A stretch of DNA of 64,000 nt, taken from NCBI GenBank assembly GCA_002724185.1, contig PBOB01000079.1:1-64000 (forward strand), written 5' to 3'. A model generated the notes under the pieces. It did no database searches. It worked only from the letters and a program-made list of their open reading frames with translations, and was not told where the DNA came from. Positions 1-58,623 of this stretch are shown in pieces; the first letter of the stretch is position 1, and every line of letters starts with the position of its first letter. Source of the stretch: Acidiferrobacteraceae bacterium. GTDB taxonomy: Bacteria > Pseudomonadota > Gammaproteobacteria > Arenicellales > UBA868. The position numbers and the translations under genes were made by a program.

Positions 1-356
1 CGACTTACCAGCCGAATAGAAGGCTTCTCGGCCCAATCGTCGCTTTCATCTTCCCACATTAAAGGCATTAGGTCATTAACATCGAGTCCACGCTGCAAAA
101 GAGACTCGCTCTCTACGTATAAACGTGTGATATCGTAGTCGCCTAGGGCCTTATAAGTGGGAGAAAAGTTTTTCATGCCCGTGGCTTTCGTCTGCTGATT
201 AGTTTTTAGCTGGAACACGCCATCATCTAAAAATGCCATACTAACATCCTGATCAAACGCAGCACCAATCAACGCCACCTCGAGACCCTCCAGGGGGTAT
301 ATAGTCCCATAGGGTGCCCGACGGTTGACATACATAAACTTTTTCTGGATGGGCAC
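1..356 (-). CDS. dsrF: DsrF, sulfur-relay subunit (partial, cut by window edge)
   Basis: DsrF is one of three subunits of the cytoplasmic DsrEFH hexamer, which passes persulfide sulfur toward DsrC in sulfur oxidisers. The visible N-terminal 118 codons include KKFMYVNRRAPYG, the AFDQDVSMAFLDDGV segment and KNFSPTYKALGDYD, all hallmarks of the family, which is usually about 136 aa, so only about 20 residues lie off the left edge. I take the GTG at 356 as start (VPIQKKFMY); it lies 10 bases after the dsrE stop. An in-frame ATG at 335 would cut into the conserved N-terminus. It is the fourth visible gene of dsrABEF. In known operons dsrH and dsrC follow, here presumably outside the window. Confidence 0.93.
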   Translation of the reverse strand, partial: MPIQKKFMYVNRRAPYGTIYPLEGLEVALIGAAFDQDVSMAFLDDGVFQLKTNQQTKATGMKNFSPTYKALGDYDITRLYVESESLLQRGLDVNDLMPLMWEDESDDWAEKPSIRLVS

Positions 357-366
357 TGTACTCGTC

Positions 367-765
367 TCAGCCACCAAATGCCACTAAGCGATCTGCCTCA
401 ATACCGGCTTCAATTAACTGTCCAAGTCCAGAAATTCTAAAACCTGACGCGAGATTATCACCGTCTTTACCATGTCTTTTCGCTTCATCCCTATCGAGTA
501 TTCCCCGTCTTTGGGCGGCCGCGACACAAACTACTAGATCTAAGTTGTAGTCGTTACCTAGTTCACTCCATCTCTCAACGATGTGGCGATCATCTTGTGG
601 TGGTGTTGTCATCCGTGTCCCATTATTAACGCCATCATGATAGAAAAAAACTCGAATAATTTTGTGTCCAGCTGCTAGAGCAGCGCGTGTAAATTGATAA
701 GCCGTATCTGACGCTTGATGCGTATACGGACCCTCGTTCACCATGATTACGAATTTCAAAGGCAA
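367..765 (-). CDS. dsrE: DsrE, sulfurtransferase subunit
   Basis: DsrE carries the active-site cysteine of the DsrEFH sulfurtransferase. The 132-aa protein has the family length (about 130 aa) and fold markers: an N-terminal beta strand KFVIMVNEGPYTHQ, the HDGVNNG loop and a Cys at residue 80 in DLVVCVAAAQRRG, which corresponds to the persulfide-carrying Cys78 of the Allochromatium protein (known from the family). It starts one base after the dsrB stop, so the two are probably translationally coupled. DsrEFH is a marker of the oxidative, sulfur-oxidising direction of the Dsr pathway and is absent from typical sulfate reducers. Confidence 0.96.
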   Translation of the reverse strand: MPLKFVIMVNEGPYTHQASDTAYQFTRAALAAGHKIIRVFFYHDGVNNGTRMTTPPQDDRHIVERWSELGNDYNLDLVVCVAAAQRRGILDRDEAKRHGKDGDNLASGFRISGLGQLIEAGIEADRLVAFGG

Positions 766-766
766 T

Positions 767-1843
767 TTAGAAGCGAATATGAGTAGAGGAATTTAAACTC
801 TTTCGGGCACCGCGCCAATTATCAATGTGAAATTTAGTAAAAGGCAAATCGCAAAGCTCAAAAAATCGTGGCCACCCTATACGTTCAACCCAGTCGTTCA
901 GTCGCTCCCAATCTCGCGCATCTTCCTTGTACACTTTCAAAATGCGTTTCACTATTGCTGTCGCTTCTGGCCAACGAGGTGGATTATTTGGGACGCCAGA
1001 TGCAACTAGTTTTTGAAACGTCGGCTTACCTCTCGCATTGGAGTGGTTACCACCAACCCATATTGCTAGTTTCGTATGTTCTGGATCGTTAATCTGCATC
1101 GGGGGGCAAGGAGGGTAGCATGCGCCGCAGCAGATACACTTTTTTTCATCAACTTCTAATGTCGGCTTCCCGTTCACCTGTGCGGGTCGAATAGCAGCTA
1201 CGGGGCACCGAGCTACTACGGAAGGCCTCTCACAGACATTACTAACCAGATCGTGATTAATCTTGGGTGGCTTCGTGTGCTGCACATTGATTGCAATGTC
1301 ACCCTGTCCCCCACAATTAACCTGACAACATGAAGTTGTAATATGCACACGATTAGGCATGTTACAGTTTCGGAATTCATCAATCAACTCATCCATCATC
1401 GCTTTCACAACTCCCGATGCATCTGTTCCAGGAATATCGCAGTGCAACCAGCCCTGAGTATGAGATATCATGGCGACTGAATTCGCGGTTCCACCGACAA
1501 TAAAACCAGCGCTCTCAAGTGCATCGATCAGTGGCGCGACCTTTTCTTCATCGCTAACCATGTACTCGATATTACTTCGAATCGTAAACCGTACATGGCC
1601 ATCTGCATACTTGTCACCGATGTCACATAGCTTTCGTAAAGTAAAAACATCCAAAATACGTTGCGTGCCTGCTCTCACTGTCCAAATCTGATCTCCACTG
1701 TGTGCGAAATGACGCAAGACTCCAGGTCGAGGATGATCATGCTTCTGCCATTGGCCAAAGTTACTCACCATCACCGGATGCATATACTGAAAGCCATCCG
1801 GACAACCAGATTCAACAGGCTGGCGCATTTTCTTTTTTGCCAT
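767..1843 (-). CDS. dsrB: Reverse dissimilatory sulfite reductase beta subunit DsrB
   Basis: This is the beta subunit of siroheme sulfite reductase. With DsrA it forms the A2B2 enzyme that oxidises DsrC-bound sulfur to sulfite in the cytoplasm. The 358 residues carry the sulfite-reductase iron-sulfur/siroheme cysteines (TSCCQVNCGG near residues 171-179, then C204 and C213 in CERPSVVARCP) and an inserted ferredoxin domain with C236, C239, C242 and C246 (CICCGACYPPCP). The length is normal for DsrB. It lies 45 bases downstream of dsrA and 1 base upstream of dsrE. The linkage to dsrEF makes the oxidative type likely; a tree would confirm it. Confidence 0.97.
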   Translation of the reverse strand: MAKKKMRQPVESGCPDGFQYMHPVMVSNFGQWQKHDHPRPGVLRHFAHSGDQIWTVRAGTQRILDVFTLRKLCDIGDKYADGHVRFTIRSNIEYMVSDEEKVAPLIDALESAGFIVGGTANSVAMISHTQGWLHCDIPGTDASGVVKAMMDELIDEFRNCNMPNRVHITTSCCQVNCGGQGDIAINVQHTKPPKINHDLVSNVCERPSVVARCPVAAIRPAQVNGKPTLEVDEKKCICCGACYPPCPPMQINDPEHTKLAIWVGGNHSNARGKPTFQKLVASGVPNNPPRWPEATAIVKRILKVYKEDARDWERLNDWVERIGWPRFFELCDLPFTKFHIDNWRGARKSLNSSTHIRF

Positions 1844-1888
1844 CGTAGTTCTCTCTTGTAGGCTGTGTAATACCGTAGCTTTAGATAG

Positions 1889-3157
1889 CTAGGCGGCTGC
1901 GGACTGCTTCTCTTCTCGTTTGCGCGCAAACCACTTGATAGCCTCCTCGTCCCAATTATCCATTCGGACATAAGACGATTCCCGTGGGTTGGCAATCATA
2001 TTAGGATCAACATCCACCTCAATTCCCTCAAGGAAATTTATCAGTCCTATCCGCTCAATCATTTCCCCACAACGCTCATGTTCAAGTCCATTATCAGCCC
2101 AAAAATCAATTATTCGTTCCGCCAAATCAACTATCTTCTCGTAATCTTCATCGTTCTCTAGCTTCATAAACGGTATGACAACGGTACCCATGAGATCACC
2201 TATCTTAAGTGTTCGCTTACCACCGATTAATACGGACACTCCTCGGTCTTCCCCGGGAGAAAAAGCAGCCGGCACAACATTAAGACAATGCATACATTTC
2301 ACGCAATTTCTATCATCAATCTCAATCGAATCGTCATTCCTCAAGCTCATGCAATTCGTTGGACAACGCGTAATAATGTTATCAATAACGTGTTGTCTTC
2401 CCTTTTGATCAACGTAAGCTTTCCACTCCGCTTGATCTACTTGAATTTCATCGCGCCAAGTTCCTATAACAGCCATATCAGCGCGCTCAATAGAGTTCAT
2501 ACAATCATTAGGGCAACCTGAGATTTTGAACTTAAACTTGTATGGCAACGCTGGTCGATGGACATCATCTGTAAAATTATTTACCAACGTCCTATGAATC
2601 TTATGCTCATTTGCACAAGACTGCTCACATCGAGCTGCTCCAACACAAGACTGAGAAGTCCGAACACAGGGTCCAGCTCCACCTAAATCCCAACCATATT
2701 CATTTATTTCATCGAAAAAATTCTGTGTGTTCTCGGTGCTAGCTCCAATAAACATAATATTTCCTGTCTGGCCATGAAACGTGACAAGACCTGAGCCCCA
2801 CTTTTCCCAGCTGTCAGCAAGCTGTCTCAAGGCAGCCGTTGTGTAGTGATGTCCGGCTGGTGGCTGCACGCGCAAGGTGTGAAACTCTTTAGATTCAGGG
2901 AACTGCTGACCAACTTCAGAGAATCGAGGAATAATTCCACCTCCATATCCATATACACTAACAACACCACCTTTCCAGTAACCTTTGCGTGTCTCGTAGG
3001 AATGTTCGAGCTGCCCCAGAAGATCATTCGCGACACCATTCACTCGCTCACTTGAATGCTGATCGCGCAAATTCTTGATTCCACTAATAAAACTTGGCCA
3101 CGGCCCATTCTCCAGTTCATCGAGCATAGGCGTAGGGTGTTGAGAATTCTTGTCCAT
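1889..3157 (-). CDS. dsrA: Reverse dissimilatory sulfite reductase alpha subunit DsrA
   Basis: This is the alpha subunit of the siroheme sulfite reductase and the first gene of the dsr operon, as in Allochromatium-type clusters. The 422-aa protein shows the siroheme-[4Fe-4S] ligands C171-x5-C177 and C215-x3-C219 (SGCPNDC), and a ferredoxin domain built from CPTNC (265-269) and CVKCMHC (285-291). The basic active-site surroundings HTLRVQPPAG and YETRKGYWKGG are also present. It is full length with an ATG start. Upstream is a 340-base gap holding a possible promoter. The downstream partners dsrB, dsrE and dsrF follow closely on the same strand. CysG at 8110 supplies the siroheme. Confidence 0.97.
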   Translation of the reverse strand: MDKNSQHPTPMLDELENGPWPSFISGIKNLRDQHSSERVNGVANDLLGQLEHSYETRKGYWKGGVVSVYGYGGGIIPRFSEVGQQFPESKEFHTLRVQPPAGHHYTTAALRQLADSWEKWGSGLVTFHGQTGNIMFIGASTENTQNFFDEINEYGWDLGGAGPCVRTSQSCVGAARCEQSCANEHKIHRTLVNNFTDDVHRPALPYKFKFKISGCPNDCMNSIERADMAVIGTWRDEIQVDQAEWKAYVDQKGRQHVIDNIITRCPTNCMSLRNDDSIEIDDRNCVKCMHCLNVVPAAFSPGEDRGVSVLIGGKRTLKIGDLMGTVVIPFMKLENDEDYEKIVDLAERIIDFWADNGLEHERCGEMIERIGLINFLEGIEVDVDPNMIANPRESSYVRMDNWDEEAIKWFARKREEKQSAAA

Positions 3158-3497
3158 GCTGTCTCCCTTATGACAATAATTTCAGTCCACAAACAAACCC
3201 GCATTTGTCCAAAATATAGCGAACTATTGTGTTGTAACAGCGGCGTAACAACTACTGTCCACTTGGGTGATAAGCAAGGCAATAAGAATATCTCTAATGG
3301 GATAGACGTATGCAATTTAGATCATGCTTTACCACCGAGAATGGTCGCACCATTAAAGACCAAAATATTTCTAGCAAGGAGATGCACTTGTCTTTCGATC
3401 TGTATGGCGCTACGACTATGACGAAGTAACACCCTCCAAGTCTAAGAAGCATAGAGAGGCTATAATTGCCCGATTAAACTATCTTGATCTATTTGAA
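3158..3497. other. Divergent intergenic region between dsrA and the TauD-like gene
   Basis: This 340-base spacer separates dsrA (leftward) from the dioxygenase gene (rightward). ORFs of 70-120 codons run through it or its edges on both strands, but they lack recognisable families and overlap dsrA, so I treat them as noise. It should hold promoters for both directions: a weak leftward candidate is listed at 3213-3240, and a TATAAT at 3461-3466 lies about 30 bases before the rightward start without a clear -35. No terminator or repeat was recognised. Confidence 0.5.
3213..3240 (-). promoter_or_regulatory. Candidate promoter of the dsr operon
   Basis: Reading leftward, CTGTTA (3240-3235) is followed after 16 bases by TATATT (3218-3213), a 3/6 and 5/6 match to sigma-70 -35 and -10 boxes. 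It lies about 55 bases before the dsrA start. The match is weak and rests on consensus only. Confidence 0.3.
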
Positions 3498-4406
3498 GTG
3501 GAAATCCCCAATTCTTCGAACAATCTAGCATCAAGAGGCTGGCTAACCAGTAACTTTGAATCCTGGTTTCAAAACAAACTGGCGCGGTACCGTGATGCTA
3601 TCCGTGATCTTGTCATAGATATTAAGGACCCTTCTCAGCTTTCAGCAGCTGAGTACTTGACTCTAACTTCTCGAGCTGCGGATACAAATATGGTGATCTA
3701 TCGCTGTATGAAACCCGATACGGTAAAAAAAGACGTTATCGTGCGACTCGCCCAACAAGTTGGACTCAAGCAATTAGACATCGCCCCAATAGCTCAATCA
3801 GACCAACTCACTGAAATCCGGCTGCATAGTACAAGACCACACCAACGGTATATACCATATACCAATCGCCCACTAAATTGGCATACAGACGGCTATTATC
3901 ATCCTGATTCACATCGAATTAAAGGAATGCTACTACACTGTGTCCAAGACGCCGAAGACGGTGGTGAAAATTTCTTTATGGATCACGAAATCGTCTATGG
4001 TTTACTTTATCGTCAAAATCCTTCCTGGATACAAGCCCTAAGACATCCTAAAACTATGACTATCCCCCCCAATCAAGATGCGCACGCAAGTCGGCAAGAT
4101 CCTCAAAGTGGTCCCGTTTTTGAAATAACAGCTAACCGACTACATATGCGATACACCACACGACAGAAAAATGTTATATGGAGAAAAAACGCATTAACAT
4201 ATGAAGCACTCAAAGCCATACACAATATCCTTGGCAATACATCAGACTTGATTGTGCGACACCACTTTGCCCCAGGAGAAGGAATTTTGACGAACAACGT
4301 CTTACACGGACGAAAGGGATTTAGTGATGATGATAGCAAATCTCGACTGCTATACCGCGCACGTTTTCTCGATTCAATAGATTACAGTGGAGTTAACCAT
4401 CAGTAA
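3498..4406 (+). CDS. TauD/TfdA-family Fe(II)/2-oxoglutarate dioxygenase
   Basis: This is a non-heme Fe(II) and 2-oxoglutarate-dependent oxygenase of the TauD/gamma-butyrobetaine hydroxylase superfamily. The metal triad is visible: H129 and D131 in NWHTDGYY, and H270 in NVLHGRKGF, followed by R288 in YRARF, the usual 2-oxoglutarate-binding arginine. At 302 aa the length is typical. The start is a GTG at 3498. It faces away from dsrA and leads the tight series with the Cmx6-like gene 18 bases downstream. The substrate is unknown. Its place in a dsr locus suggests organosulfur or sulfonate chemistry or a modification linked to sulfur oxidation, but that is inference. Confidence 0.82.
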   Translation: MEIPNSSNNLASRGWLTSNFESWFQNKLARYRDAIRDLVIDIKDPSQLSAAEYLTLTSRAADTNMVIYRCMKPDTVKKDVIVRLAQQVGLKQLDIAPIAQSDQLTEIRLHSTRPHQRYIPYTNRPLNWHTDGYYHPDSHRIKGMLLHCVQDAEDGGENFFMDHEIVYGLLYRQNPSWIQALRHPKTMTIPPNQDAHASRQDPQSGPVFEITANRLHMRYTTRQKNVIWRKNALTYEALKAIHNILGNTSDLIVRHHFAPGEGILTNNVLHGRKGFSDDDSKSRLLYRARFLDSIDYSGVNHQ

Positions 4407-4424
4407 TCTACCCATAAGCAAATT

Positions 4425-5096
4425 ATGCAAGTCGGATTAGATAGCCAGATGTCATCAAAAGCTATCGATCTATTATTTCGCATGTCAGGGAATCGTCTCC
4501 CAACAGATTATGCGTGGGGTTTATCTGAAGCAATTCAACACGCTTTACCTTGGCTAGAAAATGATGAAGAAAGTGGCATTCACCACATAAACATTCTTGA
4601 GTCCGGCAGTGGATGGCAACGGCCGCTTCACGAAGATTGGATACATTTATCAAAACGCAGCCGTCTTATGCTCCGAATCCGACGGGAGCGAATACAAGAC
4701 GCCAATGCTCTATGCAACTTAACCCTAAACTTTCTTGGCTGTTCAATCACCATAGGTAGAGCGACTCCAAGGGAGCTGTCCCCAATAACAACTTTATATG
4801 CTCGCCATGTTGCAACTCCCACGAAGGTCACTAGTGAGGAAAAATTCATAGATTGGAGCAAGAATCTAATAGGTCGTCAAGGTGCACATCCAATCACGAT
4901 ATTGTGTGGTCAGGAACGCTACATCAACACACCCGACGGAACAATTAGTACTCGAAGCCTTATGATTGATAACTTAGCACCTTCAGAATCTCTGCTACTC
5001 CAACAGTCAGGTATAGGCCCATATCGGCAACTTGGGTGCGGTTTATTTTTGCCTCACAGGGGTATTGCAGAAATACAAAATGCTAAACATAGTTGA
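4425..5096 (+). CDS. Stand-alone Cas6/Cmx6-like RAMP protein
   Basis: This 223-aa protein resembles the Cas6 subtype named Cmx6 (type I-MYXAN), an endoribonuclease family that processes CRISPR RNA. It ends in the glycine-rich RAMP loop G196-I-G-P-Y-R-Q-L-G204-C-G206 followed by LFLPH, and has the preceding RSLMIDNLAPSESLLLQ segment and an internal HLSKRSRLMLRIRRER stretch, all as I recall from that family. H48 and H49 near the N-terminal third, or H74, could serve as catalytic histidine; this is uncertain. There is no CRISPR array and no other cas gene in the window. It sits 18 bases after the dioxygenase gene beside dsr, so a non-CRISPR RNA-binding or RNA-cleaving role is possible. Confidence 0.75.
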   Translation: MQVGLDSQMSSKAIDLLFRMSGNRLPTDYAWGLSEAIQHALPWLENDEESGIHHINILESGSGWQRPLHEDWIHLSKRSRLMLRIRRERIQDANALCNLTLNFLGCSITIGRATPRELSPITTLYARHVATPTKVTSEEKFIDWSKNLIGRQGAHPITILCGQERYINTPDGTISTRSLMIDNLAPSESLLLQQSGIGPYRQLGCGLFLPHRGIAEIQNAKHS

Positions 5097-5149
5097 TAAT
5101 CTAGAATTCGACGGCATAATTAACGCCTACAGCCTACAATTGTAAAACT

Positions 5150-5353
5150 ATGAACAAAAAACAGAAGATTATTCAACGTATGATCGAGATGCAAAGAAAT
5201 TTCATCGAAGAGGAACAGAAGAAAGGCGTTAAACTTGAGGACTATTATTGTCCAGAAGATGGACATCCGCTTGAAAATTATCGAGAAGAGTTTGCCGATC
5301 TCGCAACGCAGGTGGTAGACCTAGCACACGAAGAAAAAGGGTCAAAAAGGTAG
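5150..5353 (+). CDS. Small unknown protein of the dsr-flanking block
   Basis: I do not recognise a named family. The 67-aa product is highly charged and probably helical at both ends (MNKKQKIIQRMIEMQRNFIEEEQKK and the EEFADLATQVVDLAHEEK region, described by position 1-25 and 46-63), with a central CPEDGHPLENY motif carrying its single Cys (C34) and a His. There are no membrane segments. It lies 53 bases after the Cmx6-like gene and shares frame with the next gene, on the same strand, so it is likely part of the same transcript. The compact, motif-containing composition argues for a real gene. Confidence 0.6.
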   Translation: MNKKQKIIQRMIEMQRNFIEEEQKKGVKLEDYYCPEDGHPLENYREEFADLATQVVDLAHEEKGSKR

Positions 5354-5386
5354 GCCTGGAATTTATGGAATGCGCTCGTTAGCCTT

Positions 5387-5992
5387 TTGTCGTCCACACA
5401 AGTGATCTCTGTTAACCGAATTCGTGATACCTGGCACTCTGGATCAGGCAATACCTCAATTGAGGACAATGGTATAGCATTGGCCTATGTTGGATGGCAG
5501 CTTGCGCTAGCTGCAACAAAAAACCTGCATGAGCAAGATTTCCAATATGTTGATGACAACCAACGCTTGAGTGTATTGCTCGAATATCTAGTGTTTCTTG
5601 CACACCATGCCGATAGATTGACATTTGAAGTCTTGTCGAGCCAGGAGCGTGAGCATTTTATGCATTCGTTTATTGAGGCAAGTTGTCGGCACTTCCAGCG
5701 TAATGCGGAAGAAATATTAGGCACAGCAGATTATCATGATCAATTTGTTAAGCTTCTTAGAAGACGTAACAGTGAATATAACTTGCATAAAGCGCCGAAT
5801 GGCCAACCAGGATATGGTTTATTCCGATCATTCGGAAGTCACATACAAGCAAGAATGGGTGACAAACAAACAAATCGTTGGGTTATAGATCAAGTAATCG
5901 ACATCGATGCACCTGAAGCTACCTCATCGTTAGCAAAGTCAATCAATCATCTTCTTGAAACCACTAACCAGGTTCTAGATAAACCCAACTGA
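5387..5992 (+). CDS. Unknown, probably all-helical cytoplasmic protein
   Basis: Function not recognised. The 201-aa product has no signal peptide or membrane segment. It looks mostly alpha-helical, with a His-rich middle (FLAHHADRL, near residue 65) and a C-terminal region NGQPGYGLFRSFGSHIQARMG. No ATG is available between the preceding stop (5351-5353, same frame) and the coding start, so translation must begin at TTG 5387 or GTG 5402; neither has a convincing ribosome site. It follows the 67-aa gene by 33 bases and closes the rightward block that begins at 3498. The absence of stops and protein-like composition support it. Confidence 0.6.
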   Translation: MSSTQVISVNRIRDTWHSGSGNTSIEDNGIALAYVGWQLALAATKNLHEQDFQYVDDNQRLSVLLEYLVFLAHHADRLTFEVLSSQEREHFMHSFIEASCRHFQRNAEEILGTADYHDQFVKLLRRRNSEYNLHKAPNGQPGYGLFRSFGSHIQARMGDKQTNRWVIDQVIDIDAPEATSSLAKSINHLLETTNQVLDKPN

Positions 5993-6023
5993 TATTCAGT
6001 AGACGTAGTCTACGCTCTGTACG

Positions 6024-6221
6024 CTATGGAACTCTATGCTTTGACGAGTGATCAGTATTCTTTTCTTTCCCGTCCTTGTAGCCAACACGATAAGGCTCAG
6101 TTTGCCGTTGCTCTTCACGCTCCGGATTGCCCAAGTACCCACCAACCCAACCTTGTATATACTCGGAATCAATCCCACTATTCTCAAGCTGCTTTACAGT
6201 ATTGTAATAAGTTGAATCCAA
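6024..6221 (-). CDS. Small unknown acidic/basic protein with TTG start
   Basis: The 65-aa product has no family I can name, but it looks like a genuine protein: NSGIDSEYIQGWVGGYLGNPEREEQR followed by YRVGYKDGKEKN, described as residues 13-38 and 44-55, with a pattern of aromatic and Gly residues flanked by charged helices. The start is a TTG at 6221 with GGAG seven bases upstream, a good ribosome site that decides the start. It lies 40 bases downstream of the phosphoribosyltransferase-like gene on the same strand, so they are probably co-transcribed, and it converges with the unknown 201-aa gene. Confidence 0.55.
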   Translation of the reverse strand: MDSTYYNTVKQLENSGIDSEYIQGWVGGYLGNPEREEQRQTEPYRVGYKDGKEKNTDHSSKHRVP

Positions 6222-6261
6222 ATCTTATCTCCGATATTGCTAACAATTAGACGCTGTCATC

Positions 6262-7401
6262 CTATTGTACGCGAGGGGTGCAAACCCTCTCAAATCGAGC
6301 CAGTGGTTCACCACTATCTATCATAGATGCAGTCTTATCGACCCCTGCGCGCAATGAATCTACTCTGCCAAGGTGGAAAAGACACTGGGCAGCCGCATAC
6401 AACAGACTATTTCTAGTTGGGCCGGCACTCCCAGCGAGCGCTTCCCTGCCCGCAGCAGCGGCAAAGTGTGCCAGCGAATTATTGCTAGCGCCTGCTACTG
6501 TCATATGTAATTTTGAGGTTTGCAACCCCTCATCTGGTAAAGGTGTCCCCCTAGTTAAGCAGTGCACTCCCGCACCCTGCGGATCCAAACGAAGCTCCTC
6601 ATCTTGTCCATCCCCAAAAAACCTTGTTAATCTCGATGGTTGGTTTAAAGAAGCAAAGATTCCACCTTCTATGCCTCTTATGACCATTGCTGATGTATAG
6701 CCAGATGCTCTTGCAAGCATCGTATATATGGGAGGATATGGCTTGTGCACGTAACCTGTCATTAAATGTGTTGAGCAAGCGCCTCGAATAGGCATCAAAA
6801 GAACTTCAAGCGTTGTTAGGCATGGGCGTTTCACGATTCTTGTCCTAAGGTCACGAAGACTATTAAGCGGGGGGTTCGCATAACTTTGATCAACATAAGC
6901 CCAACCAATGCTGGTATCGCTAAGCTGATTTGCTGCGGCTGTTGGATCTAGACTCGTGTCTATCCCCGCAGCCTGTAAAACCTGGAAATGGGTAAGACCA
7001 AACTTTGGACCCATAGAATCAACACCCTGGCTAACTGATGGAATCCCCAGAGATGCTAGAATCGGCAGAAGAAAAGGACCTGCCGGTAACGAGCGTGTAT
7101 ATCCGTCAAATGGATCAGATAGATCGAGGACCTCAGGAACATCTGCGATTACCTGAATAGAAGATTGCTTTAGGGCTTTGAGTATGCCGAGGAGCTCTTC
7201 ATCTGTTTCGCGCTTCATGCGAAGAGCAATTAGAAATATAGCCGCTTGAACCTCGTCTACCCTCTCCTCTAGAATTAGTGACATTGCACTATAGGCCTCA
7301 CGCTCCGAAAGATTCTTGCTAAGCTCTGGCCCTGTAGCAATCTTTTGTAGGCATGTATACATATCAACATCTGAACTGACATCTTTTTGCATAGCAATCA
7401 T
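6262..7401 (-). CDS. TrpD2/YbiB-like anthranilate phosphoribosyltransferase homologue
   Basis: This belongs to the glycosyltransferase family 3 fold shared by TrpD and thymidine phosphorylase. The N-terminal helical domain (LSEREAYSAMSLILEERVDE) and the central GVDSMGPKFG and DLRTRIVKRPCLTTLEVLL segments resemble the YbiB/TrpD2 branch, reported as nucleic-acid-binding in E. coli. The canonical TrpD phosphoribosyl loop GTGGD is not seen, so tryptophan synthesis is unlikely. I prefer ATG 7401; a TTG at 7425 would add eight residues. Relatives occur near assimilatory nitrite/siroheme genes in other bacteria (from memory), which fits its place between dsr and cysG. Its role here is unknown. Confidence 0.72.
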   Translation of the reverse strand: MIAMQKDVSSDVDMYTCLQKIATGPELSKNLSEREAYSAMSLILEERVDEVQAAIFLIALRMKRETDEELLGILKALKQSSIQVIADVPEVLDLSDPFDGYTRSLPAGPFLLPILASLGIPSVSQGVDSMGPKFGLTHFQVLQAAGIDTSLDPTAAANQLSDTSIGWAYVDQSYANPPLNSLRDLRTRIVKRPCLTTLEVLLMPIRGACSTHLMTGYVHKPYPPIYTMLARASGYTSAMVIRGIEGGIFASLNQPSRLTRFFGDGQDEELRLDPQGAGVHCLTRGTPLPDEGLQTSKLHMTVAGASNNSLAHFAAAAGREALAGSAGPTRNSLLYAAAQCLFHLGRVDSLRAGVDKTASMIDSGEPLARFERVCTPRVQ

Positions 7402-7506
7402 TGATAAATCATCCAAATCGCCCAAAATCTTTATTTTATATAGTTAGCTATATCCTACTGAATTAGGTAATGTTAACTGAAGAATTGCCGTACCCAAAGT
7501 GAAAAC

Positions 7507-7962
7507 ATGATACAAGACGACGATATTGACCTCACGAGTGGTTTTTCAGCATTTGAATCAAAGCACTTTAGCCGTGCAATGCAACTGCTCTCTCCCTATG
7601 CTGAAAAAGGTAATTCGGAAGCTCAGTATAGCCTTGGCATAATGTACCAGAATGGTCTCGGAACCATACGTAATCCTGTGCTTGCATTTCGATGGATTCG
7701 GGAGGCAGCCAAACAGAAACACGGTTTATCCTGCCATAGCCTAGGATTAATGTATCTTGAAGGAGACTGTGTCGAGAAAAATAATACTAAAGCATTCGAA
7801 TATTTCTCTCTCGCGGCAGACCAGGGCTTAGCCGGCTCTATTATCGTTCTCGCTCAGATGTACGATCAGGGTATAGGCGTAAAAAAAGACCATGAACGAG
7901 CGAAAAAACTTTACCAGAAAGCCGGAATAGACAACGTTTCGATGTTGGAACAACTACCCTAG
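7507..7962 (+). CDS. Sel1-like repeat protein
   Basis: The 151-aa protein consists of about three Sel1-type tetratricopeptide-like repeats of 36 residues. Repeat cores are visible as GNSEAQYSLGIMYQNGLG, GLSCHSLGLMYLEGDC and LAGSIIVLAQMYDQGIG, each followed by a basic/acidic helix. Such repeats form protein-protein interaction superhelices. There is no signal peptide, so it is probably cytoplasmic. It is transcribed away from the phosphoribosyltransferase homologue across a roughly 100-base divergent spacer and lies upstream of cysG. The partner is unknown. Confidence 0.85.
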   Translation: MIQDDDIDLTSGFSAFESKHFSRAMQLLSPYAEKGNSEAQYSLGIMYQNGLGTIRNPVLAFRWIREAAKQKHGLSCHSLGLMYLEGDCVEKNNTKAFEYFSLAADQGLAGSIIVLAQMYDQGIGVKKDHERAKKLYQKAGIDNVSMLEQLP

Positions 7963-8109
7963 ATCTAGACAAACAATGGTATAAGTAAAATATAGACCAA
8001 AATGTGTCAAAGCAGAAACAGTATGACTGGATTTATAGAGCTAGAATTTTGCATTAAGCCCGCAATTCCAAGCTATGCTTAACCATTAAACGAAGCTATT
8101 AAACCCAAA

Positions 8110-9537
8110 GTGGACTATCTACCTATCTTTCTAAAACTAACCGATGAGCCTTGCCTAGTTGTGGGAGGCGGTGAAACCGCGCAAAGAAAAATAGATCTTT
8201 TGCTCAGAGCGCGGGCACAGATAACCGTCGTAGCGCCAGATATCACTAATCATATTCACACTTTGGTGAAACGAGGTAGGATCGACTATATCCGAGACCA
8301 GTTTTACGACGAATACTTGGACAAAACTCGGATTGTAATAATTGCTACAAATAACATTGATACGAACAAACGAGTAGCAGCAGCAGCGCGTAAGTTACGA
8401 CTACCGATAAATGTTGTCGACCAACCAGCTCTATGCGACTTTATCATTCCCTCTATTGTGGATCGATCTCCAGTGATTGTTGCGGTTGGGACTGGCGGTA
8501 CCTCACCGGTTTTAGCGCGCATTCTACGCGCCAAACTCGAAACAATAATTCCAGCAAGTTACGGTCAACTGGCTATCCTTGCTCGTGACTTTAGGGCGAA
8601 AGTTCGCTCCAAGCTTCCAACAACTCAACAGCGTCGAGCTTTTTGGGAACAGGTTTTCCAGGGTCCAATAGCTGAGATGATGTTTTCTGGAAAAGAAAAT
8701 AAAGCACGACATTTACTCAATAAACTCCTGAATTCAGCTGATCCACACTCCTTTAAACAGGGCGAAGTTTATCTTGTTGGTGCTGGACCTGGAGATCCGG
8801 ATCTTCTTACATTTCGCGCACTTCGTCTAATGCAACAAGCGGACGTCGTCCTATACGACAGACTTGTATCAGATGGCGTACTTGATCTTGTTCGTCGCGA
8901 AGCTGATCGTATCTATGTTGGGAAAAAAAGAGCGCAGCATGAAGTTCCCCAAAATAAGATTAATCAACTACTCGTTGATCTTGCTAAATCTGGCAAACGA
9001 GTCCTTAGGCTAAAGGGTGGCGATCCCTTTATTTTCGGTCGTGGTAGCGAGGAAATTGAAGACCTATTTCATAATGGTATCCCATTTCAAGTAATACCTG
9101 GCATCACAGCCGCTTCTGGCTGCGCATCTTACGCAGGAATTCCCCTAACACATAGGGATTTTGCACAGTCTTGTGTTTTTGTCACCGGTCATCTGCAAAG
9201 CGAGAATCTTGAGTTAAATTGGAAGCAGCTCTGCCAGCCAAGTCAGACGGTTGTTGTCTATATGAGTCTCACTGGCCTCGATACAATTTGTAAACAAATG
9301 ATAAACCATGGATCACCAGCCCACCTTCCGGCAGCGTTAATACAGCAAGGAACCACGTCTGATCAACGGGTGGTCTGTGGCACGCTTAATACTCTACCCG
9401 GCCTAGTCTCCAAGCTTAAGATTAAGCCCCCAACACTATTGATAATTGGGGAGGTTGTACAATTACATAGCATGCTGAATTGGTTTCAACCTGGTCAGAG
9501 CGAACTCGGAACATTACAACTGGGAAATACAGGTTAG
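8110..9537 (+). CDS. cysG: Siroheme synthase CysG (trifunctional)
   Basis: CysG converts uroporphyrinogen III to siroheme by SAM-dependent bis-methylation, NAD-dependent oxidation and ferrochelation. The 475-aa protein has the N-terminal dehydrogenase/chelatase domain (CLVVGGGETAQRK near residue 15; TGGTSPVLARILRAKLE near 125-140, including the regulatory serine region) and the C-terminal SUMT methyltransferase domain (YLVGAGPGDPDLLT, LRLKGGDPFIFGRG). The length equals the E. coli type. The start is GTG 8110. Siroheme is the cofactor of DsrAB encoded 5 kb away, and a Rieske protein gene follows by 21 bases. Confidence 0.96.
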   Translation: MDYLPIFLKLTDEPCLVVGGGETAQRKIDLLLRARAQITVVAPDITNHIHTLVKRGRIDYIRDQFYDEYLDKTRIVIIATNNIDTNKRVAAAARKLRLPINVVDQPALCDFIIPSIVDRSPVIVAVGTGGTSPVLARILRAKLETIIPASYGQLAILARDFRAKVRSKLPTTQQRRAFWEQVFQGPIAEMMFSGKENKARHLLNKLLNSADPHSFKQGEVYLVGAGPGDPDLLTFRALRLMQQADVVLYDRLVSDGVLDLVRREADRIYVGKKRAQHEVPQNKINQLLVDLAKSGKRVLRLKGGDPFIFGRGSEEIEDLFHNGIPFQVIPGITAASGCASYAGIPLTHRDFAQSCVFVTGHLQSENLELNWKQLCQPSQTVVVYMSLTGLDTICKQMINHGSPAHLPAALIQQGTTSDQRVVCGTLNTLPGLVSKLKIKPPTLLIIGEVVQLHSMLNWFQPGQSELGTLQLGNTG

Positions 9538-9558
9538 TAAAATAACAGGGGGGATGAT

Positions 9559-9903
9559 TTGAATAGTCGAGTCGCCTATCAAGATGTAGCAGCAACCAAC
9601 GATCTTCTGAAGAATGGAATGCTGAGGGTACAAATAAATGATGAGTGGATACTAATTGCAAATGCCGCAGGTACTTATTATGCAGTCTCGGATACCTGCA
9701 CTCATGAAGATGCATCTTTATCCCTTGGCGCTTTGAGCGATGATTGCATTCGCTGCCCATTGCATGGTAGCCGATTTCGATTACGAGACGGGAAGGCACT
9801 GGATGATCCTGCCGATGTTGACCTAGCTGTTTATGCGATAGAAGTCAAAGACGGGCGGATTCTCGTGGCCCCCTGTACGAAGATCAATATAAAGTCACCC
9901 TAG
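9559..9903 (+). CDS. Small Rieske [2Fe-2S] ferredoxin (NirD-like)
   Basis: The 114-aa protein is a single Rieske domain. The cluster ligands are visible as C-T-H (in DTCTHEDASL) and C-P-L-H (in IRCPLHGSRF). It resembles the small subunit NirD of assimilatory nitrite reductase or ring-hydroxylating-dioxygenase ferredoxins. The start is TTG 9559, placed five to ten bases after an AGGGGGG ribosome site; the nearby ATG is out of frame. It follows cysG closely, and its end overlaps the converging hemD stop by 4 bases. No large nitrite reductase subunit is in the window, so its redox partner is open. Confidence 0.87.
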   Translation: MNSRVAYQDVAATNDLLKNGMLRVQINDEWILIANAAGTYYAVSDTCTHEDASLSLGALSDDCIRCPLHGSRFRLRDGKALDDPADVDLAVYAIEVKDGRILVAPCTKINIKSP

Positions 9904-10685
9904 AGGTCAGAAACAACCGTGTATACGCCTTCCAATATTGATTCTTCAGTAGGACATGTTGCAACGATTATCTTACCTTGGTAGCCAATCACTCTGCAAT
10001 GCTGTTCCACCCTTGCACTTACCACAACTAGAGGTGCCTCTTTAAGCCATAACCTCTTTCCTTCCGACATTAGGTTCCATAGATTCTGAGCAGCGCTTAC
10101 ACTCATAAGAGTAACCACGCTGATACCATATTGCTCCAAATATCTGAGTGCACTCGCATTTAGTTGACTTGGCGCGGAACGTCTATAACATGTCACCGCC
10201 ACAACGTTAGCATTGCGCTCAACCAGACGCATAGTCAGCCACGCGCGCCCATGTTCTCCAGAGAAAATGTAAACAACCTTCCTGACGGGGGCTGCCAACT
10301 CCGGAATTGCTAAGAGATTCTCACTTTTGAACGGAGGAGTTGCCACACCGCTCACCTTTATCCCAGCTTCTCTAAGCTTGAAGGCCGTGCCTGGACCAAT
10401 TGCAAAAATCTTAGCCTCAGAACGCAAAGTTTGACCGCACCGCTGTAAAAGGTTGATTCCGTACGCAACAGCATTGACACTCAGAAATATAACTATATCA
10501 GCATTTTGAATATTACGAATATTTTGTTTCGCAACTGTCTCATCATCAGGTGCTTCAATAATAAGTGTGGGGCATCTTATGGGCCTCCCTCCACATGCAT
10601 CTATCAATTCACAAAGACTAGCCGATTGGTGTTCTGGCCGGGTTACTAGTACCGACGCTCCATTCAGATTAATCACTGGATTCAT
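9900..10685 (-). CDS. hemD: Uroporphyrinogen-III synthase HemD
   Basis: HemD closes and inverts hydroxymethylbilane to uroporphyrinogen III, the branch point to heme and siroheme. The 261-aa protein shows the two-domain HemD pattern with the N-terminal VLVTRPEHQSASL strand-helix, the FLSVNAVAYG segment around residue 67 and a second-domain TLMSVSAAQNLW motif near 190. HemD sequences are generally poorly conserved, but the position directly after hemC, with a 17-base overlap, supports the call. The pair is transcribed leftward, converging with the Rieske gene. Confidence 0.92.
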   Translation of the reverse strand: MNPVINLNGASVLVTRPEHQSASLCELIDACGGRPIRCPTLIIEAPDDETVAKQNIRNIQNADIVIFLSVNAVAYGINLLQRCGQTLRSEAKIFAIGPGTAFKLREAGIKVSGVATPPFKSENLLAIPELAAPVRKVVYIFSGEHGRAWLTMRLVERNANVVAVTCYRRSAPSQLNASALRYLEQYGISVVTLMSVSAAQNLWNLMSEGKRLWLKEAPLVVVSARVEQHCRVIGYQGKIIVATCPTEESILEGVYTVVSDL

Positions 10686-11592
10686 TATTTAGTATTTGTT
10701 GGGCACCAAGTTTTTGCATTTTTTTTGCAAGATCGTAGCCAACATTCTTTGGAGAAGCTTTAGATCCACGATGCTCACAGAAAATTACTTCTTGCCCATC
10801 AGGATCTCCAACCATACCCCTTAAATGCAAGATATCACCATCTATCTCGCAATAAAACGCAACTGGAGATTCACAACCAGCGTTCAATGCTTCATTTGCA
10901 GCACGTTCAGCGTTCACTCGCACTTCGGTATCCCGATCATTAAGAGATTCAAGAATCGAATTGGTTAATTGGTCATCTGCACGACACTCAAGACCAATTG
11001 CCCCCTGACCCGCTGCCGGCAACATATTCTCGATGGGTATAACATCAGTAGCGCGATGCTCTAAACCTAATCGTTGTAATCCCACATTAGCAAGAACTAA
11101 GGCATCAAAATCTCCTCTATCTAAGCGCTCAAGACGTGTTTGCACATTGCCCCTTATTGGTCGCACTTGGACCCATGGTGTAAAGTACTTGATAAGGCAT
11201 TGACGCCGAAGGCTACACGTACCCACCCTAGCGCCTGGTTGCAAAGAACGAAGCGTCTGGGAGCTAGTCGAAACCAATGCATCTCGTGGATCTCCTCGAT
11301 TACAAATAGCGGCAATGTGTAACCCAATAGGCAAGCTCACAGTTACATCTTTCATTGAGTGAACAGCGACGTCGATCTGGTCTCTCAACAAACATTCCTC
11401 AAGCTCTTTCAAGAATAAGCCTTTGCCGCCCTCTTTCGATAGAGACAATTTCTGTTGACGGTCGCCCTGTGTAGTGATGGCAATCAACTCAATCTGAATA
11501 TCCGAGTGTAACGACTGTAGCCGCTCAGATACATAATTAGCCTGCCAAAGAGCTAGCTTGCTTTTTCGAGTACCGATCCGAAGCTTTGTCAT
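10669..11592 (-). CDS. hemC: Porphobilinogen deaminase HemC
   Basis: HemC polymerises four porphobilinogens to hydroxymethylbilane. The 307-aa protein has canonical motifs: RIGTRKSKLALWQA at the N-terminus, the catalytic SMKDV region (HSMKDVTVSLP), the arginines in ARVGTCSLRRQ and RPIRGNVQTRLERL, and the dipyrromethane-cofactor cysteine in NAGCESPVAF near residue 240. The start is ATG 11592. It is the first gene of the leftward hemC-hemD pair, and a divergent spacer of 231 bases separates it from hemB. Confidence 0.97.
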   Translation of the reverse strand: MTKLRIGTRKSKLALWQANYVSERLQSLHSDIQIELIAITTQGDRQQKLSLSKEGGKGLFLKELEECLLRDQIDVAVHSMKDVTVSLPIGLHIAAICNRGDPRDALVSTSSQTLRSLQPGARVGTCSLRRQCLIKYFTPWVQVRPIRGNVQTRLERLDRGDFDALVLANVGLQRLGLEHRATDVIPIENMLPAAGQGAIGLECRADDQLTNSILESLNDRDTEVRVNAERAANEALNAGCESPVAFYCEIDGDILHLRGMVGDPDGQEVIFCEHRGSKASPKNVGYDLAKKMQKLGAQQILNNESSD

Positions 11593-11814
11593 TTGATGTC
11601 TATGCCTATCTAGAGATATAACGCTAGTTTATCAAGCCCAGTAGTTGTAGCCACGAAAGCCCATAATGTATACCTCAGATCCCGCCATGGAGCTATATCC
11701 ACCATAATAATTGGGTGATTTATTTATTGAACAACCCAGATATCGAATAATAAAGTCCAAATTAGAAAATCGCATCACAATTGTGGATTCACATTCGATT
11801 GGATCAGTGCATAA

Positions 11815-12831
<1,017 letters not shown>

Positions 12832-51896: not shown

Positions 51897-54353
51897 CTAA
51901 TTTGCTCTAATGATCCGAGATGATTTAGCAGATGGCGTTTTGGTGATATGAAGTAAATCACTATATCTTGTCCCCGTTTTTTCGTACGAAATATCGTCTA
52001 TGGGTGGCGCATTGTAAGATTTTTCAGATCGGCCAATTTGAGGAACACCGTAGGTAGGAGTCCTTTGCTTTGATGAACGTCCAGCGCGCCTAATCAGATC
52101 ATCCATGCCCTCTGGCAACAACTCCTGACCATTTTGATTTCCAGCAGCGCGAGAAATTGACTCATTCATCAATGTCCCCCCTAGATCATTGGCGCCCGAT
52201 TTAAGGCACTCTACGACTCCTGCCTCACCCATCTTGGTCCAAGAAGCCTGAATATTATGCACATACCGATAAAGTACAATCCGAGATACTGCATGCATCA
52301 AGATTGCCTCACGAAACGTAGGCCCTCTGCGACATTCTTGGTGATGATACATGGGCGCTTCTTGATGGATAAACGGAAGCGGCACAAATTCCGTAAAGCC
52401 ACCCGTCTCTCTCTGCAAGTTCCTAATGTGGATCAAATGACGAGCCCAATTAGAAGCATTATCTACATGGCCAAACATTATGGTTGCAGTGGTTGGTAAT
52501 CCTACCTTATGTGCTGTTTCAATAGTTTGTAGCCACTCAGTAGTCGTTATTTTGTCGGGACATATGATCTTTCTAACTTCATCGTCAAGAATTTCTGCTG
52601 CTGTTCCTGGCAATGTCGACAAACCAGCATGCCTCAAAGCAATCAAGAACTCAGCAGTTGATATTCCAAGAGTTTGCGCACCTTGGGTTACTTCAAGTGG
52701 AGAAAATGCATGTATATGAATATCGGGCACTTCACTTTTTATAGCTTTGCAGATTGATAGATATGTTTCACCGGTAAAACTAGGATGAATACCACCCTGC
52801 AGACAAACTTCTGTAGCTCCTCGAAGCCACGCCTCCCGACTTCGTCGACATATCTCTTCAAGATCTATGACATATGGATGATCTCGTGAACTTGTTCTCG
52901 GACTACCCTTTGAGAAAGCACAAAACCCGCATCGATAAGTGCATATATTAGTGTAATTGATATTTCGATTCACAACATAAGTGACAATATTTCCGTTGAT
53001 ATCAGTTCGAAGTTCATCCGCAAACTTGCATACCGAGACAAGCTCATCGCCGCGAGATCGAAATAACTGAACAATTTCGCTCTCTGTTAAATCTTTACCT
53101 CCTGACACAAGGTCAAATACCCGATGCAACGCACTGCTCTTGGAGTGTGTTTTAAGAGCTGGGATCGTAAATGGAACATCAGAAATTTTCCCTGCAATCC
53201 AATTATCAGTCCGAGGCCAACCATCGCTGTCCGAGCATTGATGAATATGTTTCGAAATGCTTGGCGACAGCCAGTGGCTCGCATGTTCAATATATTTCGG
53301 ATACACGGGCAGCCTCGGAATGAGAGTCTTGCCTGCGCTCTCTGTAGCGTTCCGTAATTGAGCAATTCTAGGCCAAGGGGCTTCTGGATTAACGTGATCC
53401 ACAGTTATTGGAGATACTCCCCCCCAATCATTTATCCCGGCGTCAATTAATTCCTGCTCTCTACCGGGAGAGAGGTTTGGCGGTGCTTGGATATTCATAT
53501 TCGGGCCGAATAAAATACGAGCCATCGAAATTGTCCAAATCAGCTCTTCTTGAGATGGCTCGGGAAAGTTAACCATAAGCGTATTTTTCTTTGCACGAAA
53601 AGGTTGAATTATCAGTTCCTGTATGTGCCCATAACGATCATTTAGACCCCTCAGTTGGAGCAAAGCATTAATGCGCTCCCCACGAGTTTCTCCAATACCT
53701 ATCAAAATACCTGTTGTGAATGGAATCCGAAGTTCTCCTGCTTGCTCTATATTCGCTAGACGGACTGTGGGGTGCTTGTCGGGTGAACCAAAATGAGGTC
53801 CGCCACGTTGGCACAAACGCTCGCTCGAAGACTCCAGCATAATCCCTTGGGACGCAGAGACTTCCCGGATTTCAGCCATTTCATCCCTCGATAAAATACC
53901 AGCATTAATATGTGGCAGAAGACCGGTCTGCTCAAATACCACTTTAGCTGACTTCTGCAAGTATTTGACTGTTGAACTAAATCCGAGCCGACTAAGTTCT
54001 TCTCGAGCTACACGATACCTAAGCTCTGGCTTATCGCCCAGAGTGAACAAAGCCTCATGACAGCCCAATGACTTACCCGAGGTTGCAATATTATGAACCT
54101 GCTCCTGAGACAGATAAACTTCGGAAAGCTCACGCGGGATTTTTGCAAAAGTACAGTAGTGGCATACATCACGGCACAATACCGTCAAAGGGATAAACAC
54201 TTTCGGAGAAAAAGTAATAAGCTGGCCATGACCTTCGTTTCGCAATATCCGACTCACTTGCGTCAAGAGAGCATCATTATCCAGATCTATTAGTTCTTCT
54301 GCTTCAGCTTGAGTTGGCCTTCGCTCCAAAAAGCAGTCTAGATCAATGCTCAT
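51897..54353 (-). CDS. fbiC: FO synthase FbiC (CofG-CofH fusion)
   Basis: FbiC makes the deazaflavin ring (FO) of coenzyme F420 from tyrosine and the pyrimidine 5-amino-6-ribitylaminouracil. The 818-aa protein contains two radical-SAM domains: the CofG half with C60-x3-C64-x2-C67 (CRDVCHYC) and the CofH half with C471-x3-C475-x2-C478 (CTYRCGFC). Both SAM/cluster motifs are intact and the order matches the actinobacterial fusion. Its ATG overlaps the cofC stop by 11 bases, so it is the last gene of the leftward F420 operon. The organism has no other F420 gene in view. Confidence 0.95.
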   Translation of the reverse strand: MSIDLDCFLERRPTQAEAEELIDLDNDALLTQVSRILRNEGHGQLITFSPKVFIPLTVLCRDVCHYCTFAKIPRELSEVYLSQEQVHNIATSGKSLGCHEALFTLGDKPELRYRVAREELSRLGFSSTVKYLQKSAKVVFEQTGLLPHINAGILSRDEMAEIREVSASQGIMLESSSERLCQRGGPHFGSPDKHPTVRLANIEQAGELRIPFTTGILIGIGETRGERINALLQLRGLNDRYGHIQELIIQPFRAKKNTLMVNFPEPSQEELIWTISMARILFGPNMNIQAPPNLSPGREQELIDAGINDWGGVSPITVDHVNPEAPWPRIAQLRNATESAGKTLIPRLPVYPKYIEHASHWLSPSISKHIHQCSDSDGWPRTDNWIAGKISDVPFTIPALKTHSKSSALHRVFDLVSGGKDLTESEIVQLFRSRGDELVSVCKFADELRTDINGNIVTYVVNRNINYTNICTYRCGFCAFSKGSPRTSSRDHPYVIDLEEICRRSREAWLRGATEVCLQGGIHPSFTGETYLSICKAIKSEVPDIHIHAFSPLEVTQGAQTLGISTAEFLIALRHAGLSTLPGTAAEILDDEVRKIICPDKITTTEWLQTIETAHKVGLPTTATIMFGHVDNASNWARHLIHIRNLQRETGGFTEFVPLPFIHQEAPMYHHQECRRGPTFREAILMHAVSRIVLYRYVHNIQASWTKMGEAGVVECLKSGANDLGGTLMNESISRAAGNQNGQELLPEGMDDLIRRAGRSSKQRTPTYGVPQIGRSEKSYNAPPIDDISYEKTGTRYSDLLHITKTPSAKSSRIIRAN

Positions 54354-55080
54354 AGTTCACCACCCCCAATCTAACTTGCTGACTTCCTGATGCCGCTAGA
54401 CTCCCACCGTCATAACCCCTATAAATTAGGTCTAATTGTGAGATAAATTCCTGAGTTTTTGAGCCACCTTCCATTGCTGCCAGTCGAAGAAGATCACTAG
54501 GCCAATCTACATCAAAACCAAGTCCAGGCAATTTTAGGATGTTCACACTAACACCAGACTGTTCTGCAGATTGGACATGAACTGCGAAACTGTTCTCTCC
54601 GAATTGGGGTCTAATAATCATTGGAATATTAGACATTATGCTATTTGTGCCAACTCCATCGCGAGAAGGTACAAGCGTAATACCATCGTTCGACAGTGAA
54701 AACTCAATCAACTGATTGACCTCCAAATGATCTAACAGTGGCACATCCGCTGGAATCGTAAAAAAATTATTGACCCCATTATGCGCAAGAAACTGAATCG
54801 CTTTGGTGATCGCATCATTAAGATTAGTTGGATTATTTTCTTCAAGCACTTGAACATCAAAATCATCTAGATACCTTCGGATTGCATTACAATTGGTGAT
54901 AACCAAGATCCCGCCCAACTGATGCACACCCAGTAAAACGTCCAGCACATCACTAACCATAGAAAGCGACAAATATCTGCGTTCGGCCGGAGAGAGGATA
55001 GCCGATAACCGACTATTGGACGTCTCTACTGACTTCAAAGGCAACACTACCCATGGTCTATGTTGATCGCTATTTTGCAT
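54343..55080 (-). CDS. cofC: CofC/FbiD-like guanylyltransferase
   Basis: CofC activates 2-phospholactate, phosphoenolpyruvate or 3-phosphoglycerate with GTP to the precursor used by CofD. The 245-aa protein has the nucleotidyltransferase start WVVLPLKSVETSNSRL (in place of a longer LxxGxGxR motif) and the metal-binding TIPADVPLLDHL near residue 100. The identity rests on this weak family pattern and on the tight operon position between CofD and FbiC. Which three-carbon acid it uses cannot be read here. Confidence 0.85.
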   Translation of the reverse strand: MQNSDQHRPWVVLPLKSVETSNSRLSAILSPAERRYLSLSMVSDVLDVLLGVHQLGGILVITNCNAIRRYLDDFDVQVLEENNPTNLNDAITKAIQFLAHNGVNNFFTIPADVPLLDHLEVNQLIEFSLSNDGITLVPSRDGVGTNSIMSNIPMIIRPQFGENSFAVHVQSAEQSGVSVNILKLPGLGFDVDWPSDLLRLAAMEGGSKTQEFISQLDLIYRGYDGGSLAASGSQQVRLGVVNYEH

Positions 55081-55092
55081 GAATAAATTAAA

Positions 55093-56846: not shown

Positions 56847-56859
56847 TGTACGTTTTATG

Positions 56860-57528: not shown

Positions 57529-57578
57529 ACTCCCCCCTCTAGATTAAATTTCAGGTGCATATACCCATGTTTTTACAA

Positions 57579-58412: not shown

Positions 58413-58623
58413 ACTACAAACCTCCGCTATAGTCATAATAAATAATCCTAAGTCTACATCGTCTGACTAATATAAAGCTTATCTGACTTCGCAGCCTTTG
58501 AAATCAATGTTTTCGTACTCGTGCTTCTTTCGTAATTTGTTATGATTAGTCTAGAGCATAAATCAATTATTATTCGAAACTAAATTGTGTCGAAAGACCG
58601 AGAATTAACGAGGACAATACTTT

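Follow-up and report, generated by a model that had tools for sequence, protein, structure and literature searches.

What does a gene for a Cas6-like protein do beside the genes of reverse Dsr (the oxidative dissimilatory sulfite reductase, rDsr), which is central to the sulfur cycle but little understood in its regulation and assembly? In our study, this question was raised by an open reading frame at positions 4425-5096 (plus strand), which has an ATG start and encodes a Cas6-like protein of 223 amino acids. The window, by which we mean the whole stretch of DNA analysed, is 64,000 nucleotides long and comes from an Acidiferrobacteraceae bacterium (assembly GCA_002724185.1, contig PBOB01000079.1, positions 1-64,000, forward strand), whose genome assembly is 2.69 Mb in size and 92.9% complete. 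The gene had been predicted to lie between a TauD-like dioxygenase and small genes beside dsrA, and this placement was found, with the TauD-like gene at 3498-4406 on one side, the genes of a 67-aa and a 201-aa protein on the other, and dsrAB in divergent orientation. The features of the locus are as follows.

367..765, minus strand: dsrE-like gene (gene order dsrABE), called from its position and its sequence conservation against dsrE at other loci
767..1843, minus strand: dsrB (TIGR02066, 1.1e-162)
1889..3157, minus strand: dsrA, for the alpha subunit of sulfite reductase, transcribed away from the module (TIGR02064, 1.2e-184)
3289..3304, no strand: palindrome of 16 bp, TATCTCTAATGGGATA, between dsrA and tauD, probably an operator for the two divergent promoters (strict form conserved in relatives)
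3498..4406, plus strand: TauD-like Fe(II)/2-oxoglutarate oxygenase, named dsrQ in publications and leading the divergent operon (PF02668, 1.6e-17; synteny; PMC7596348)
4425..5096, plus strand: Cas6-fold protein of 223 aa with a Gly-rich loop at residues 196-208 and Y29/H53 at the Cas6 active-site positions (PF09559, TIGR02807, AlphaFold2 fold match, alignments)
5150..5353, plus strand: 67-aa protein, adjoining the Cas6-like gene in many gammaproteobacteria (no Pfam match; family alignment; synteny)
5387..5992, plus strand: 201-aa all-helical protein, co-inherited with the Cas6-like gene (87/89 genomes, including unlinked cases; AlphaFold2 pLDDT 90.5)
6024..6221, minus strand: 65-aa protein of family F18, convergent, often closing the module (13/41 loci)

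The TauD-like, Cas6-like, 67-aa and 201-aa genes were separated by 18, 53, and 33 bp, respectively, and therefore probably form one operon. At the far end of the window (51897-58436), an apparently full coenzyme F420 biosynthesis cluster, unusual for a gammaproteobacterium, was seen by eye; it seemed to contain a CofGH fusion, CofC, CofD, CofE, an NADPH-F420 reductase-like protein and an LLM-type oxidoreductase.

The Cas6-like protein matched the Pfam family PF09559 (Cas6) with an E-value of 7.4e-52 and 176.5 bits (cut-off 26.7) and the NCBIfam family TIGR02807 (cas6_cmx6) with 110 bits (cut-off 98.85), and six PADLOC Cas6 models also matched it. The glycine-rich RAMP loop was found at residues 196-208 (GIGPYRQLGCGLF), where G198, G204, and G206 were invariant in an alignment of 38 sequences; the original prediction of a Cas6/Cmx6-like protein with such a loop was thus borne out. 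The profile of the 38 homologs led to the Cas6 in 8fcj, from a type I-B CRISPR-associated transposon, with an E-value of 1e-25. The AlphaFold2 model had a mean pLDDT of 89.8, and its top Foldseek matches were Cas6 proteins throughout. In VIA-align comparisons, the model matched the Cas6 chain 8fcu_B from the Cascade of a type I-B CAST at a Z-score of 24.7 (1.8 A, 193 residues), followed by Pyrococcus Cas6 with Z-scores of 15-16. A lack of similarity to RAMP folds had been named as one outcome that would speak against the prediction, and the RAMP fold was clear. As judged from the profile matches and the predicted model, the product of this reading frame is a protein of the Cas6 family with a double RAMP fold, and we regard both family and fold as settled. 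The protein contained 23 K+R and 22 D+E residues and is not markedly basic.

Is it then a part of a CRISPR system? No CRISPR-like direct repeats were found in the 64-kb window, and the neighbours of the Cas6-like gene were dsr and module genes without cas genes, as had been predicted. A cas locus elsewhere in the genome would also have explained the gene; in the whole genome (92.9% complete), Cas1 and the general Cas6 model PF10040 had no match, and Cas3 had none above the cut-off, with weak helicase-type matches only. Among 194 relatives, the presence of PF09559 showed no association with Cas1, which was found in 21/89 carriers versus 22/105 non-carriers (p=0.73). No cas genes were found around two unlinked copies of the Cas6-like gene (L036 and L047), and no viral copies were found. 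The CRISPR-linked PF09559 proteins were located on cyanobacterial plasmids and were flanked by cas3, cmx8 or cas8, cas7, and cas5. With no Cas1, no Cas3 above the cut-off, no repeats in the window and no association with Cas1, a role of the gene as a CRISPR component was rejected. In a separate observation, a Cas6/Cmx6 on a Gloeobacter plasmid (L183, NZ_CP063846.1 80074-80691) had no cas3, cmx8 or cas7 nearby; its neighbours were a PAPS-reductase-family gene, a cupin gene and a DNA cytosine methyltransferase gene, and it is possibly another non-CRISPR Cas6.

The distribution of the Cas6-like gene was found to follow that of dsrA. With dsrA called at an E-value under 1e-40, PF09559 was present in 89 and dsrA in 93 of the 194 relatives; both genes were found in 87 genomes, PF09559 alone in 2 and dsrA alone in 6 (Fisher p=5e-45, a test that ignores shared ancestry). 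The worry over ancestry is reduced by the consistent synteny and by a sample of one genome per family (84 families), in which 26 had both genes, with 1 and 2 exceptions (p=3e-18). In all 71 genomes with both genes on one contig, the two were divergent, at distances of 349 to 4144 bp. Of 398 Pseudomonadota genomes drawn evenly, five contained PF09559, each with dsrA divergent alongside, and 48 dsrA carriers outside the class were without PF09559. A scan of one genome per species found at least 579 relatives; dsrA was in reach at 55 of the best 80 loci, which were the ones examined, and the order was divergent in 55/55. The named sulfur oxidizers Thiohalobacter thiocyanaticus and Thiodiazotropha had this divergent order; the Thiosymbion, Parabeggiatoa, and Thioploca loci contained the Cas6-like gene with no dsrA in reach. 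The genomes were mostly metagenome-assembled, and some absences of the Cas6-like gene are due to contig ends: in four of the six genomes with dsrA only, dsrA lay at a contig end, so that a Cas6-like neighbour could be cut off. The other two were real absences, of which one genome (G084) retained the 201-aa gene and the other (G101) retained the DsrC paralog and the 67-aa gene. The Cas6-like gene is co-inherited with the reverse Dsr genes in Gammaproteobacteria, including the former Betaproteobacteria, outside of CRISPR. Co-occurrence, synteny and the structure of the clade, taken over dozens of families, bear out the predicted dedication to sulfur metabolism.

Clustering of the genes near the Cas6-like loci defined a conserved module. 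The order of the genes, away from dsrA, was the TauD-like oxygenase, a 62-aa protein (F9), a 235-aa protein (F11), the Cas6-like protein, a DsrC paralog, the 67-aa protein and the 201-aa protein, and a PKHD-type hydroxylase gene was often present on the opposite strand before the 201-aa gene. The window's version contained the TauD-like, Cas6-like, 67-aa, and 201-aa genes. In the betaproteobacterial loci (n=4), the Cas6-like, DsrC paralog, 201-aa, and TauD-like genes were rearranged but together, and at one betaproteobacterial locus (L152) neither the DsrC paralog nor the 201-aa protein was called. The dsrQ gene (TauD-like) was reportedly placed upstream of dsr operons by Lenk et al. in 2012 (cited in PMC7596348). 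Four alphaproteobacterial dsr loci (L165, L167, L168, and L169) contained TauD/dsrQ and the 62-aa protein F9 divergent from dsrA, with no Cas6-like gene; TauD and F9 therefore appear as a sub-unit of their own.

The DsrC-family paralog (PF04358) adjoined the Cas6-like gene at most loci (L040:5857-6192, minus strand, and about 100 more), and its C-terminus contained an invariant RKGGY and no catalytic or sulfur-carrying cysteines. The source genome had one true DsrC, on a contig other than that of the window, and the cysteine-less paralog was not found in it. The 201-aa protein was present in 87 of the 89 carriers of the Cas6-like gene (p=8e-49), including genomes where it was unlinked, and in 86-87 genomes its presence went with that of dsrA and of the Cas6-like gene. 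Its AlphaFold2 model (pLDDT 90.5) was all-helical, and Foldseek found nothing under an E-value of 0.001. On a second look, the best match was a homolog of Cbp3, a cytochrome bc1 assembly factor; the Z-score of 9.1 at 4.5 A is too weak for a helical protein, and this likeness was set aside. The protein falls into no Pfam family; a Pfam BART match occurred in 1/38 members and was treated as chance.

In a maximum-likelihood tree, 45 dsr-linked proteins were separated from seven CRISPR-type proteins by a branch with 100/99 support. The Gloeobacter protein, with no cas3 nearby, was one of the seven. Since it has no root and places several betaproteobacterial rows on long branches, the tree does not order the CRISPR and dsr forms by age. 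R78, E138, and G162 were conserved in 131/131 proteins as marker residues of the dsr clade, and R84 was also invariant. The clade contained a C-terminal PHK motif and, in the gammaproteobacteria, a GNGWxRP insert, the loop of which had low confidence in the AlphaFold2 model.

The positions of a possible active site were also conserved. Histidine was found at both positions 29 and 53 in 122 of the 131 distinct dsr-linked proteins (93%), and the window protein contained Tyr29 and His53. Two relatives contained Phe29/Tyr53 and one betaproteobacterial protein contained Tyr29/Leu53; from these variants, cleavage may have been lost in a minority of members. In the CRISPR-linked forms, H29 was kept in 6/6, and the H53 position was kept in 8fcj. 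PfuCas6 makes use of Tyr31, His46, and Lys52 (PMC3652601, PMC3727216), and two histidines have been implicated in Cas6b of M. maripaludis (PMC3652601). From the order of the motifs, we infer a match of position 29 with Tyr31 and of position 53 with His46 of PfuCas6. Cas6 active sites vary, and some active Cas6 enzymes contain no catalytic histidine at all (PMC3652601, PMC3727216).

The dsrA-tauD intergenic region of many gammaproteobacterial dsr loci contained a palindrome with the consensus TATCYC-N4-GRGATA, the strict form of which was found in 36 of 77 distinct regions versus 0.04 in shuffles. The median distance to dsrA was about 206 bp, and that to tauD 234 bp. The 3289-3304 site was the only strict match in the window, and the palindrome was not found in the alpha- and betaproteobacterial dsr loci examined. 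No base-pair covariation was detected (33/43 paired versus 31.8 in shuffles). The palindrome was rejected as an RNA hairpin: its half-sites vary independently and neither strand pairs better. It is for these reasons best read as a DNA operator, probably that of a dsr regulator. Together with the conserved module, this palindrome in the divergent promoter region goes beyond what the original prediction had described.

No conserved RNA hairpin specific to the Cas6-like/dsr loci was found, and hence no defensible substrate candidate. The 5' regions of dsrA, tauD, cas6, and the other module genes had no notable excess folding energy, and window positions 1-12000 had no Rfam match. Hairpins upstream of dsrB and dsrM had excess stability (mean z of -1.16 and -1.62, respectively). 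At many loci (e.g., L052, L133, and L093), stable GC-rich hairpins were seen at the dsrA-dsrB and dsrC-dsrM junctions, and these are likely elements of mRNA processing or stability. As substrates of the Cas6-like protein they were rejected, because comparable hairpins were found in alphaproteobacterial operons without the gene and no hairpin was found at the dsrA-dsrB junction of the window.

What the Cas6-like protein may do at this locus can be read from these patterns with a confidence somewhat short of even. We tentatively propose, as the likeliest role, that it assists reverse Dsr as an accessory protein that binds RNA and possibly cleaves it. An action on RNA is suggested by how strongly the fold, the Gly-rich loop and the pair of histidines have been conserved. 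The protein would retain the RNA-binding face of Cas6 and would bind a cellular RNA, which most members would probably cleave. We infer, with less support than for the action on RNA, that the target belongs to the dsr regulon; the likeliest target would be a dsr regulon transcript or a small RNA made from one. The synthesis or assembly of the Dsr machinery would thereby be adjusted post-transcriptionally, with the TauD-like DsrQ, the cysteine-less DsrC paralog and the helical 201-aa protein as possible partners. Several findings speak against this proposal: no hairpin proved unique to these loci, the one conserved palindrome fits a DNA site, histidine is not universal at positions 29 and 53, the dsr-specific motifs could point to another task, and the protein has no marked excess of basic residues. 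A narrower version is unlikely: a Cas6-type endoribonuclease would cut a specific dsr-regulon RNA, and the cysteine-less DsrC paralog would sense the sulfur status and so set the amount of reverse Dsr.

Other explanations were weighed as well. The RAMP fold may have been put to another use, in which the protein no longer acts on RNA but binds Dsr components (for example, the cysteine-less DsrC paralog or DsrAB) as a scaffold or assembly factor and aids the maturation of the complex. The dsr-specific motifs (GNGWxRP, E138, G162, and PHK) are absent from CRISPR Cas6 and may reflect a new function, most of the partners look like protein factors (the DsrC paralog with RKGGY, and the 201-aa protein with its weak Cbp3 match), and the histidines are lost in a few members. 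However, the histidine pair is kept in 93% of the members, more strictly than one would expect of a pure scaffold, and we consider this explanation a serious one that is still rather unlikely. The database names of these proteins point to a Cas6 that processes crRNA in the usual way for a CRISPR system encoded at another site of the genome, or to the remnant of such a system; this is scarcely credible, given the missing Cas1 and above-cut-off Cas3, the lack of association with Cas1 set against a near-perfect association with dsrA in the 194 genomes, the separate clade, and the two unlinked copies without cas neighbours.

DsrEFH and DsrC are relatives of TusBCD and TusE, and an RNA-binding protein together with a DsrC paralog could therefore link sulfur flow to tRNA thiolation. 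The Cas6-like protein would then act on tRNA or another sulfur-relay RNA and, with the paralog, make this link or sense it. The established kinship of DsrC and TusE and the frequent presence of the paralog beside the Cas6-like gene agree with this; however, the paralog contains no sulfur-carrying cysteines, the source genome has one DsrC and the paralog was not found there, and to our knowledge Cas6 proteins are not tRNA enzymes, which makes such a role improbable. Equally poor are the prospects of a nucleic-acid fold turned to DNA, in which the Cas6-like protein would be part of the regulator acting on the TATCYC-N4-GRGATA palindrome. The strong conservation of the palindrome and its position between dsrA and the module would suit such a regulator, whereas the betaproteobacterial loci contain the Cas6-like gene without the palindrome, Cas6 folds bind RNA, and an unlinked transcription factor would be a simpler candidate for binding the site.

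A Cas6-like protein tied to dsr seems to be undescribed so far. No mention of such a neighbour was found in the open literature, which was the scope of the search, and the main text of two large studies of Dsr evolution (PMC10504309, PMC11406059) contained no mention of it. These proteins carry CRISPR names in the databases, and this may explain why they were passed over. Hundreds of proteins named 'type I-MYXAN CRISPR-associated protein Cas6/Cmx6' seem to be encoded by genes of sulfur oxidation, and the reassignment of the dsr-linked forms corrects both annotations and false CRISPR calls. A defined gene set was found to follow reverse Dsr, consisting of the Cas6-like, cysteine-less DsrC paralog, 201-aa, and 67-aa proteins. 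If RNA is involved, this would connect CRISPR-type RNA processing with chemolithotrophic energy metabolism for the first time. If the endoribonuclease reading is true, a CRISPR-family RNA processor would have entered lasting non-immune service across many sulfur-oxidizing Gammaproteobacteria.

Among the known systems, the dsrQ locus of the literature is the same divergent locus as in the window, and the TauD-like gene of the window is dsrQ; tauD/dsrQ has been reported upstream of dsr operons, but only this gene was named, and neither the Cas6-like protein nor the other module members were mentioned (PMC7596348). The paralog of the module is a member of the DsrC/TusE family but contains no C-terminal cysteines and ends in RKGGY. 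PfuCas6 has a like fold (Z 15-16) but no detectable sequence relation to the window protein, and Cas6b of M. maripaludis likewise has no detectable sequence relation; both process crRNA. Their placing of Tyr/His or His/His in the active site is likely common to the dsr-linked family (PMC3652601). The closest forms were Cas6/Cmx6 of type I-MYXAN and of the type I-B2 CAST (TIGR02807, PF09559; PDB 8fcj/8fcu), which share with the window protein the sequence family, the double RAMP fold (Z 24.7), the Gly-rich loop and an N-terminal LPxDH motif. The CRISPR-linked Cas6/Cmx6 proteins contain no GNGWxRP loop, E138, G162 or PHK, and keep one histidine where the dsr-linked forms mostly have two. The CRISPR-linked homologs adjoin cas3, cmx8, cas7, and cas5, whereas the dsr-linked forms adjoin dsrAB instead.
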